In this document: positions 34,952 through 38,872 of the stretch, piece after piece | Layout: every line of letters begins with the position of its first letter | Position numbering within the stretch: the first letter of the stretch is position 1 | Assembly (NCBI GenBank): GCA_030427585.1 | Contig: JAUIBW010000015.1 | Location: 1 to 64,000 of the forward strand | DNA from: Bacteroidia bacterium | GTDB lineage: Bacteria > Bacteroidota > Bacteroidia > Flavobacteriales > Flavobacteriaceae | Length of the DNA stretch: 64,000 nucleotides | Reading direction: 5' to 3' | Program-made: the position numbers and the translations under genes | The notes under the pieces: generated by a model | What the model was told of the DNA's origin: nothing | The model's input: only the letters and a program-made list of their open reading frames with translations | Database searches by the model: none

Positions 34952-35509
34952 ATGAAAAAACTAGAAATGTCAATTTATACTAAAAACATATATAACGTAT
35001 CAATTATATTTTTATTAGCTATGTTTTTAAGTTGTAACACTTCCAAAAAGCAACATATACCTGTACAGGTAATCTATCAAGATCAGGAGACAGAATCTTA
35101 TAATGAACAAGCAATTATAACTGGCGAATGGCATCTAGATTCTATTACCCATACGAACAAGAAAAAAAAAGAAGGTGACACACAATTTCCTTTTGTAACA
35201 ACGATCTGGTCTTTTTCTAACAAAGAAACATATACCGTAGTAAAACAAGAAGAAGATTTAAAACTATCACTGGATAGCCTTAAATCAAATATTACGGCTC
35301 ATTCCCCAAAACATAAATTAAACGGAAAATATAAGCAAAAAGGAGATCTTCTTATCACATCTATTTTGGGAGGAAAAACCGAATATAAAATCAAAGAAAA
35401 ATCAGATTCATTATTAGTATTAGAATCTCAAAGATATCAAGTTCCTCCCATTAAAGAAGAAGACAAAGACAAGGTTACAAATCATTACTTTTCTACTGTT
35501 AAAAAATAA
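34952..35509 (+). CDS. Hypothetical lipoprotein, lipocalin-like
   Basis: Lipobox MFLSC; ITGEWHLDSI...GKYKQKGDLLIT lipocalin-like pattern. Confidence 0.6.
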   Translation: MKKLEMSIYTKNIYNVSIIFLLAMFLSCNTSKKQHIPVQVIYQDQETESYNEQAIITGEWHLDSITHTNKKKKEGDTQFPFVTTIWSFSNKETYTVVKQEEDLKLSLDSLKSNITAHSPKHKLNGKYKQKGDLLITSILGGKTEYKIKEKSDSLLVLESQRYQVPPIKEEDKDKVTNHYFSTVKK

Positions 35510-35525
35510 TTCAAACACAAAACAA

Positions 35526-35576
35526 TGAAGCGATTTAAACTTTTTTGCCAGAATCAAAAAAGCTTAAATCACTTCA
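35526..35576 (-). terminator. Long hairpin downstream of the RiPP-like precursor, probable terminator on the minus strand
   Basis: 22-nt arms, 7-nt loop; two non-Watson-Crick positions are G-U wobbles only in the minus-strand transcript; followed by TTGTTTTGTGTTT. Confidence 0.7.
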
Positions 35577-35592
35577 ATAACTAATACATCTT

Positions 35593-35811
35593 CTAACAGT
35601 AAATAGGGCCACTAATTCCACCACCATTACCCGTGCCTCCACCGGTACCTCCACAATCATTAGTATAGCACGTCTGACCAGGGTTATTACCTTGTCCTGC
35701 ACAACTGTGTAACGACGGGTTAGCTGTTCCTCCTTTGATGGATTTAGAGGCTAGATTAGAAATTTTGATTTTCTCTAGAGATAGTTTTTTTAACAATTCT
35801 CTTTTTTTCAT
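35593..35811 (-). CDS. GG-leader RiPP-like (putative class I lanthipeptide-type) precursor peptide
   Basis: 72 aa: MKKRELLKKLSLEKIKISNLASKSIKGG leader of the Bacteroidota GG-leader type, then TANPSLHSCAGQGNNPGQTCYTNDCGGTGGGTGNGGGISGPIYC core with 4 Cys. Confidence 0.72.
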   Translation of the reverse strand: MKKRELLKKLSLEKIKISNLASKSIKGGTANPSLHSCAGQGNNPGQTCYTNDCGGTGGGTGNGGGISGPIYC

Positions 35812-35926
35812 AATTTTAAGTTTTTGTAGTTAATAATACCAGATATTACAAATTACAACAACTAACACTTGTTTTTTTGACGTATTTTAACACAAAAAAT
35901 CAAAATATCATAATTATCAGACAAGG

Positions 35927-36658
35927 TTATTTAAAATAATTCAATAGCGTTCCTTTTTTAGAAGAGGACACTGCTAGCTCTTTTCCTGAAGAAAGTACAA
36001 TACTACCCCCTTTACCCTTTCGGTATCGTGTTATTTTACTCACATTTACCAAATAGCTTTTATGAGTTCTCACAAACCCATGAGGATTTAGGGATTCTTC
36101 AAAATATTTTAGCGTTTTACTTACTAACTTCTGGCCTCTATTCAGGTAAATTTTCGTGTAGTTGTCATCAGCTTCACAATACAAAATATCAGAAATCTGT
36201 AGAACCTCGAAACCATCTTGTTGCGGAATAGTGATTTTACCTTCGACTGTAGTTACCTTAGGAACTAAAACAGTATCCAAAAGAGCAGCTTCCCGTTGCT
36301 TGATATAACTTACATGATCAACAGCTTTGATAAGGTTATCAATTGCAATAGGTTTTAATAAGTAATAAGTTGCCTGAGCATTTAGAGCGTCTACCGCATA
36401 ATGATCATAGGCAGTTACAAAGACAATTTCGAATGTACGATCAGGAACTTGCTCTAATAAATCAAATGCATTTCCATAAGGCATTTCTACATCTAGAAAC
36501 AACATATCAGGAGTGTGGGATTCTAGCAAGTTCAATGTTTCTTTTACATTGGCTGCTTCTCCCAAAATGGCAACCGACGGGCAATACTTACCTAAATAAT
36601 TTCTAAGTATGGCTCGGCTATTAGTTTCATCATCTACTATGATCGCGGTTAAGTTCAT
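35927..36658 (-). CDS. LytTR family DNA-binding response regulator
   Basis: REC domain (AIIVDDETNSR, MLFLDVEMP, FVTAYDHYAVDAL) plus LytTR domain (ILYCEADDNYTKIYL, FVRTHKSYLVNVSKI). Confidence 0.95.
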   Translation of the reverse strand: MNLTAIIVDDETNSRAILRNYLGKYCPSVAILGEAANVKETLNLLESHTPDMLFLDVEMPYGNAFDLLEQVPDRTFEIVFVTAYDHYAVDALNAQATYYLLKPIAIDNLIKAVDHVSYIKQREAALLDTVLVPKVTTVEGKITIPQQDGFEVLQISDILYCEADDNYTKIYLNRGQKLVSKTLKYFEESLNPHGFVRTHKSYLVNVSKITRYRKGKGGSIVLSSGKELAVSSSKKGTLLNYFK

Positions 36659-38872
36659 TTACTTGTCTTTCTTAAGAATTAATTTTACCTGTGTTCCTTC
36701 TGTGTTATCTTCAAGATCCGATATAAACACATCAATCTTATCTTTATACATTTTATTAAGGATGGCAATTCTCTTTTTAATATTACCCATCCCTCTGGAT
36801 TTTTGAAGTTTTTGATTTTGCGTTTTCAGTTCTTTAGATTTTTTACGTCCAATTCCATTATCGGTAATTGTAATTTCTATACTCTCTGATGTTGCTTTTT
36901 GAAAACATATCGATAGTAGTCCTTTTTCAGTTTTATATCGTAGTCCATGCCATACTGCATTTTCTACATATGGCTGCAATAACATAGGAGGAATCATATA
37001 TTCATTAATATCTATTTCTGGATCAACCTCAACCGTATACTCAAATTTATCCTGAAACCTAAAATGTTCTAACTGCACATATAATCTTAAGAGTTCTATC
37101 TCCTTTTCTAGAGGAATAAAATCTTCTTCACTATTCTCTAAAACAGCTCTCATTAATAACGAAAAGTCGGTAAGATATCGATTTGCAGTTCTTTCATCAC
37201 TTGTTGCAATAAATGTATTCACAGAGTTTAAAGCATTAAAAATAAAATGTGGATTCATTTGAGAACGTAGTGATTTTAATGCCAAAATATTATTTGCATA
37301 TCGTTGTTGCTTCATATTACGATACATCAAATACCCAGCAAGAAGTAACAAAACCATTAACCCGATTAAAAAATAGATTACAATTTGTTGTCGTATACTT
37401 TGTTGGTTTGCTATTTCTTGTGAAGCAAATGCCAATTCATATCTTGCTTCATTTAACTCCCTATCTTTTTCTAATGTAGTAATTCTATTTGCCCTCTGCG
37501 CTAGTTCTCTGCTAAAACGAGCTGCCTGTGATATCTCCTGATCTTTTTGAATATACAACTTGTCTATGATTACCTCATACTCTTTGAAAGCATCTGAGGC
37601 CTTTTCTAACTCTCCTTTTTCTCGATAGACTTCACCAAGTTTTCGGGTAGCATCTTTTTGAACAATAAGGTCATTTTTTGATTCTGCCTCTTTAATACTT
37701 TCTTCTAAATATGGTATGGCTTCGTCATACGCTTCTTGGGCTGCAAAAGCGCTGGCAATTTTATAATTTTGCACCTGCGTAGTTAGCGAGTTGTCTTTCT
37801 CTGCCTGTGGGCCTTCATTCTCACTACTCTCTTCAATCTCTTCGATATCCTCGAGTGCTTCTTTTCTTAATTGTATCTCTTTGCCATAGCTATTACTCTT
37901 ATTATAAAAGTCTGCTGCAACAGATCGTTGTCTTGCTGATGTTTTTTTATCTTTTTGTTGTGCCAGTTGCACTGAATTATCCAAATACTCCTCAGCATCC
38001 CTAATATTCCCTTCTTGCTGTAATACCTCGGCTAGCTTAGAGTTTAATAAAATCACTTTGTCGTCTATTTTTTTTCTCTGACTAATTGCAAGTGCTTTAT
38101 TGTAATTAGTAATAGCATCAGGATAGTGTTGTAACCCTTTATAACTATCTCCCAGACCTTCATAAACAATAGCTTTTTGAATATTACTCAATCTGGATTG
38201 CTGTAATTCATCAAAAGTATTTAGAGCCGCCTGGTAATTTTTTCCTTCTAGTTGGGCATTAGCCAATTTAATTTTTACATCTGTATTATACTTATTTTTA
38301 AGACTTAGAAGGTAGTTGCTCTCTGCAAGATCTGGTTGTTTCCAATACTCATAAATATCAGCTAACGACTCAAACAATTCAGCCTTTTTATCGTCTGATG
38401 AAGGATCATCATCTCGTATTGTTTCTAGAGCATTAGTAATATATTCTATACTTGTAGCTGCATCCTTTTTTAAGAAGCTTTTTGCTGCTCTAAGGTTTTC
38501 CTGATACCTCAACTCTCCTTTTTGTTTTGAAACCGAAGGTGATTTAGCCTCTTGTGGATTATCCTGTACTTCAATATCAATTCTTTGACCATCTTTAATC
38601 GTATATCGTATCGTATTAAAACTATCATGAGTAATTACAAGTTCATCTCCAACCCGGGCTTCAATCCTAAAATCACCAAAAACATCAGTTGTAATAGTTC
38701 CTTTTCCCAGTACAGTCACATCGACATCTCTAATTCCCTTTCGGGTATTCTTCTCCTTCACAGAACCTTTAATACTCATTGATTCTGGTCGCTTTGCCTT
38801 AGCATTTTCTTGCCCCAAAACCAATATAGGAAGGAAGCAAAGAAATACTATTATCAAACCAATCTTCTTCAT
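36659..38872 (-). CDS. Sensor histidine kinase (LytS/His_kinase PF06580 type) with N-terminal carboxypeptidase-regulatory-like domain and TPR repeats
   Basis: Signal peptide; MSIKGSVKEKNTRKGIRDVDVTVLGKGTITTDVFGDFRIEA; TPR region; TM VIYFLIGLMVLLLLAGYLMY; LRSQMNPHFIFNALNSVNTFI; ITDNGIGRKKS. Confidence 0.93.
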   Translation of the reverse strand: MKKIGLIIVFLCFLPILVLGQENAKAKRPESMSIKGSVKEKNTRKGIRDVDVTVLGKGTITTDVFGDFRIEARVGDELVITHDSFNTIRYTIKDGQRIDIEVQDNPQEAKSPSVSKQKGELRYQENLRAAKSFLKKDAATSIEYITNALETIRDDDPSSDDKKAELFESLADIYEYWKQPDLAESNYLLSLKNKYNTDVKIKLANAQLEGKNYQAALNTFDELQQSRLSNIQKAIVYEGLGDSYKGLQHYPDAITNYNKALAISQRKKIDDKVILLNSKLAEVLQQEGNIRDAEEYLDNSVQLAQQKDKKTSARQRSVAADFYNKSNSYGKEIQLRKEALEDIEEIEESSENEGPQAEKDNSLTTQVQNYKIASAFAAQEAYDEAIPYLEESIKEAESKNDLIVQKDATRKLGEVYREKGELEKASDAFKEYEVIIDKLYIQKDQEISQAARFSRELAQRANRITTLEKDRELNEARYELAFASQEIANQQSIRQQIVIYFLIGLMVLLLLAGYLMYRNMKQQRYANNILALKSLRSQMNPHFIFNALNSVNTFIATSDERTANRYLTDFSLLMRAVLENSEEDFIPLEKEIELLRLYVQLEHFRFQDKFEYTVEVDPEIDINEYMIPPMLLQPYVENAVWHGLRYKTEKGLLSICFQKATSESIEITITDNGIGRKKSKELKTQNQKLQKSRGMGNIKKRIAILNKMYKDKIDVFISDLEDNTEGTQVKLILKKDK

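Follow-up and report, generated by a model that had tools for sequence, protein, structure and literature searches.

Does a 72-aa open reading frame that stands beside no modification enzyme encode the precursor of a lanthipeptide, and which enzymes could act on it? The question is raised by an ORF at positions 35593–35811 of the window (the whole stretch of DNA analysed, 64,000 nucleotides of a Flavobacteriaceae genome). An earlier note, made from the sequence of the window, had read it as an orphan GG-leader precursor resembling those of class I lanthipeptides.

The precursor gene and its conservation

The sequence of the ORF is as quoted in the earlier note; the strand, absent there, is minus, with the ATG at 35811 and the stop at 35593. 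The division of the product made at that time also stands. The leader of 28 aa, MKKRELLKKLSLEKIKISNLASKSIKGG (35728–35811, minus strand), ends in G27-G28 and fits the pattern LxLxKx5L with residues L10, L12, K14 and L20, while the core of 44 aa, TANPSLHSC..TC.T..CGG..SGPIYC (35596–35727, minus strand), contains four Cys and eight Ser/Thr residues. This ORF is the sole match to LxLxKx5L followed by GG among the small ORFs of the window, and an order-2 Markov null produced one such match in 60 simulated windows. These results, together with the orthologues and the dN and dS values given below, confirm that the lanA-like ORF is a real gene and not a chance reading frame.

The gene for a LytTR response regulator (35927–36658, minus strand, identified by Pfam) lies upstream on the same strand, with 115 intergenic bases (35812–35926) between its stop and the precursor ATG; it is paired with a TPR/His_kinase sensor gene (36659–38872, minus strand, also identified by Pfam). 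On the 3′ side there is a terminator-like hairpin (35528–35574, minus strand, found by consensus scan only), followed by a convergent 185-aa ORF (34952–35509) with no match in Pfam and then by murI. The ∼60 bases 5′ of the precursor ATG are well kept in most copies at the regulator site. The flavobacterial promoter element TTG-N-TAnnTTTG was found upstream of neither the window ORF nor its orthologues, and the sigma-70-like sites upstream of the ORF were close to the shuffled expectation; the gene may be transcribed either from its own promoter or by read-through from the regulator.

The closest relatives of the regulator are those of Aquimarina atlantica, A. megaterium, Aquimarina sp. Aq78 and A. 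macrocephali. In these four, as well as in A. aquimarini Aq135 and A. longa, an orthologue of the precursor gene is situated between the regulator and murI; most other Aquimarina examined have none there. A genus-wide profile search put the carriers at 11 of 70 genomes, the window genome included, and the three carriers that it added have the same regulator–murI synteny. Outside the window genome, homologues are thus present in 10 other Aquimarina genomes, at the regulator–murI site in nine and elsewhere in one. Beyond the known carriers, 398 genomes of the order gave one further match, a weak one in the leader region.

Pairwise comparisons of the orthologues gave dN of 0.00–0.13 and dS of 0.20–1.77. 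With dN well below dS, the protein is under strong purifying selection, and the constraint on the core is about the same as that on the leader. Across the 11 aligned homologues the leader residues L10, L12, K14 and L20 are invariant, as are all the core cysteines (C37, C48, C53 and C72) and the core residues S33, S36, T47, T50 and S67. Variation in length is found in the Gly-rich linker; the most distant homologue varies elsewhere in the core too.

The gap between the LytTR gene and murI (34952–35926 in the window; the same gap in L046–L091) is itself variable across Aquimarina. It is nearly empty in many of them and holds the precursor gene in some, and in L048, L062 and L064 it is occupied by an ORF of ∼230 aa whose start resembles a signal peptide. 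From this pattern the gap looks like a site of gene gain.

Modification and export genes in the same genome

The earlier note saw no maturation machinery in the window, and for LanB, LanC and the C39 exporter this proved correct: none of the three has a match on the contig that holds the window (C23), and all are located on other contigs. For radical SAM enzymes, also said to be missing, the statement was covered only as far as the TIGR04148 maturase, which has no match in the genome. The genome-wide search proposed in the note for dehydratase, cyclase and C39 ABC genes found all three: LanB (PF04738) twice, as split dehydratases, on contigs C50 and C37; LanC (PF05147) twice, on contigs C56 and C37; and C39-peptidase ABC exporters three times, on contigs C56, C50 and C37. 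Maturation, if it occurs, would necessarily be in trans, as had been foreseen, and LanB, LanC and C39 genes are available in the same genome.

The C50 locus has a split LanB (LanB_N and LanB_C, the latter PF14028, identified by Pfam), divergent from a HlyD gene and a C39 ABC exporter, and the C56 locus combines LanC and GG-leader peptides with HlyD and a C39 ABC exporter. The reading frame of the C50 LanB_N is open, with a TTG start common to the relatives checked. The zinc ligands (Cys; Cys-His) of the LanC proteins of this genome are intact, a feature that distinguishes them from the LanC-like proteins of Bacteroidales (PMC10352776). It should be mentioned that the C50 LanB_N gene (L033:10793–13090) lacks an ATG close to its true start, the TTG being codon 5 of the open frame, and that ATG-only gene calls shorten its product by about 90 aa.

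Several more peptide loci were observed in this genome. A grasp-with-spasm cluster (TIGR04192, TIGR04193) on contig C37 (L031:6625–13031) includes a GG-leader precursor and a C39 ABC exporter, and a trailing 446-aa ORF resembles the membrane-fusion partner of that exporter. Additional GG-leader peptides (MKKKNIKNLKLKKETIVKL...GGG; MKKKQLKKLKLNKNTISKF...KGG), with no adjoining LanB or LanC, are encoded at L038:4739–5448 and L039:5847–6020, and these loci also encode two Cys-rich peptides whose leader is of another kind and ends in GA/GS. Finally, at least five loci (L033:14066–18013, L034:12248–14323, L035:5704–7704, L036:4756–6780 and L031:3102–5136) carry a Cys-containing small peptide with a GG/GA leader beside a protein of ∼570 aa, of the same type at each locus. 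In the two of these proteins that were tested, TPR repeats are combined with an AraC-type HTH (Pfam HTH_18); the ∼570-aa proteins are possible peptide-linked regulators.

Assignment of the precursor and its alternatives

The ORF has the features by which GG-type LanAs of Bacteroidetes are recognized, i.e. an LxLxKx5L leader with GG and a core with Cys and Ser/Thr residues capable of ring formation. The search against GG-leader models suggested in the earlier note did return a match, to NCBIfam NF038153 (lant_leader_L1a), at a score (11.2 bits) below the cut-off of 22. The homologue in genome G332 (see below) scored 17.8 bits, and even precursors inside LanBC clusters (20.7 and 21.2 bits) were likewise below 22. 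The precursor ORF had no match to TIGR04149 (rSAM-modified GG RiPP) and none in Pfam. The assignment to lanthipeptides is provisional, since the defining rings are predicted from sequence and the curated leader model scored below its cut-off.

That the core belongs to a family of lanthipeptides is supported most strongly by gene adjacency in one relative, uncultured Aquimarina sp. isolate 513 (genome G332, which includes L078). Here the homologue, MRKPKSLSNLSLKKSTISKLTSTSIKGG followed by NPSLHSCVHQQGGPTCLTDNCGGGNGGDTGGGGISGPIYC (L177:1498–1704), is away from the regulator site, codirectional with a 404-aa LanC gene and immediately 5′ of it. Its leader is identical to that of the window precursor at 16 of 28 positions (manual count), the core is better conserved, and both cores begin at the GG. 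The same genome has a stand-alone LanB_N/LanB_C pair (L223). G332 is the one genome of 11 in which an enzyme gene adjoins the homologue; no enzyme gene is adjacent in the other 10. This homologue with the same core supports the class I lanthipeptide-like reading of the earlier note.

Precursors with similar leaders also occur in other genomes inside complete LanB_C/LanB_N/LanC clusters (L169 and L167), and L169 has two precursor genes with the leader ...KLSLSKKKISNL...GG. In two carriers, G303 and G304, LanB and LanC are each present as a single gene, and the two genes are on separate contigs, so maturation there would be in trans. A separate observation concerns L157:7980–13776 (A. megaterium, contig C4 of G302), where eight near-identical small precursors flank a LanC gene on both sides; the locus also holds grasp-with-spasm ATP-grasp and SPASM enzymes, an unusual mixture of LanC and graspetide genes.

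We think that the product of the ORF is probably an orphan precursor of a class I lanthipeptide; enzymes acting in trans would dehydrate and cyclise it, and export would be through a C39 ABC transporter. The LxLxKx5L stretch of the leader would recruit a split LanB encoded at a remote locus, whose glutamylation (Lant_dehydr_N) and elimination (Lant_dehydr_C) subunits, encoded together, would dehydrate Ser/Thr residues of the core. LanC, encoded at a third locus, would then link the conserved Cys to these dehydrated positions as (methyl)lanthionine rings. Cleavage after the GG and export of the core would fall to a C39-peptidase ABC transporter working with its partner HlyD. We infer the recognition in trans, the ring formation and the choice of LanB, LanC and exporter.

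The association of the precursor with particular enzymes was assessed in 44 genomes, eight precursor carriers among them. In the LanB tree all eight carriers have a LanB in one clade of 21 sequences, and 18 of the 21 have no LanC in their own cluster (the G315 LanB at 484041 was scored as stand-alone, the nearby LanC belonging with a second LanB). Members of the clade occur in 20 of the 44 genomes. Its apparent association with the precursor is weak, since 12 of the 44 have the clade and lack the precursor and since seven of the eight carriers represent one inheritance; the nominal probability of 0.0007 for eight of eight is to be read with this shared descent, i.e. with at most two events. 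The LanC partner is less certain than the LanB candidate: where the precursor gene is at the regulator site, all seven carriers have a common LanC type, similar to that of contig C56 (68–96% identical), and the LanC adjoining the G332 homologue belongs to a different subtype.

The main rival is a GG-leader peptide secreted without modification, cut after the GG by a C39 exporter and having a core with two disulphides. The main site without an adjoining enzyme gene, the four conserved Cys, which permit two disulphides, and the genome's three C39 ABC exporters would all agree with such a peptide. Still, we consider it unlikely: export of an unmodified product, offered as the alternative in the earlier note, is disfavoured against modification by the homologue beside LanC in G332, the leader has a LanB-type motif and five core Ser/Thr residues are invariant, even though conservation is just as high at other residues of the core.

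Modification by grasp-with-spasm (ATP-grasp/SPASM) or radical SAM enzymes in place of LanB and LanC is very improbable. A grasp-with-spasm pair does lie near the C39 exporter of contig C37, and one sister leader of the genome has a match to TIGR04149, but a TIGR04148 radical SAM match is missing from the genome, the core is nearly devoid of acidic residues for ester or amide cross-links and the sole enzyme found beside any homologue is LanC.

There is equally little reason to regard the product as a peptide that signals to the TPR histidine kinase and LytTR regulator encoded beside it, by analogy with the three-component systems of Gram-positive bacteria; this reading concerns role and would be compatible with modification. 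Although the gene is immediately 3′ of the LytTR regulator on the same strand in 10 genomes, many Aquimarina have the pair without the peptide, and the G332 homologue adjoins LanC and not the pair. The synteny comparison shows the regulator retained in Aquimarina with and without the precursor, and we take it, like the sensor paired with it, as context, apparently outside the precursor system. Coevolution of the precursor with the pair was rejected, given that the pair persists where the peptide is absent.

Relation to known lanthipeptide systems

As a candidate lanthipeptide precursor, the peptide belongs to a known class, and its unusual feature is the distributed layout of the putative LanA, LanB and LanC genes. 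In the literature searched, with partial coverage, we came across no class I lanthipeptide system described as dispersed. Genome mining seeks precursors beside enzymes, and stand-alone precursor genes are easily overlooked. If maturation in trans is true, LanA, LanB and LanC of a class I system have become separated in Aquimarina, and the genus offers a chance to test how well a LanB/LanC pair tolerates remote substrates.

In a number of Bacteroidetes class I LanAs, LxLxKx5L takes the place of FxLD; many of these leaders end in GG, and a C39 protease is often present in the cluster (Walker et al. 2020, PMC7268733). The window precursor is similar to them in leader motif, GG, C39 exporters and split LanB, and differs in having no LanB or LanC nearby and in a leader below the NCBIfam model. 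Split LanBs, as in pinensin, were treated within clusters (PMC7268733), whereas here precursor, LanB and LanC are dispersed, a distinction drawn from description and not from sequence. The lanthipeptides of Chryseobacterium and Runella, shown experimentally by production in E. coli (PMC9993889), are likewise class I products of Bacteroidota, but their clusters carry their own enzymes.

The prochlorosins and synechococsins (ProcM/SyncM) resemble the window precursor in being encoded by genes scattered over the genome, some of them individual, with a remote enzyme: a broadly tolerant class II enzyme modifies the prochlorosin precursors (PMC10783134). They have LanM and Nif11-type leaders, as opposed to LanB plus LanC and a short GG leader here. 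Were several precursors scattered round the chromosome all served by one stand-alone split LanB and one stand-alone LanC, the class I system would be fully distributed, a counterpart of the prochlorosin arrangement; we put this forward tentatively, as the less probable state of affairs. If it is true, the core has been frozen by selection, which would suggest a conserved role, e.g. signalling, and not that of an arms-race antibiotic. Prochlorosin cores vary, while the core of the window precursor is conserved.
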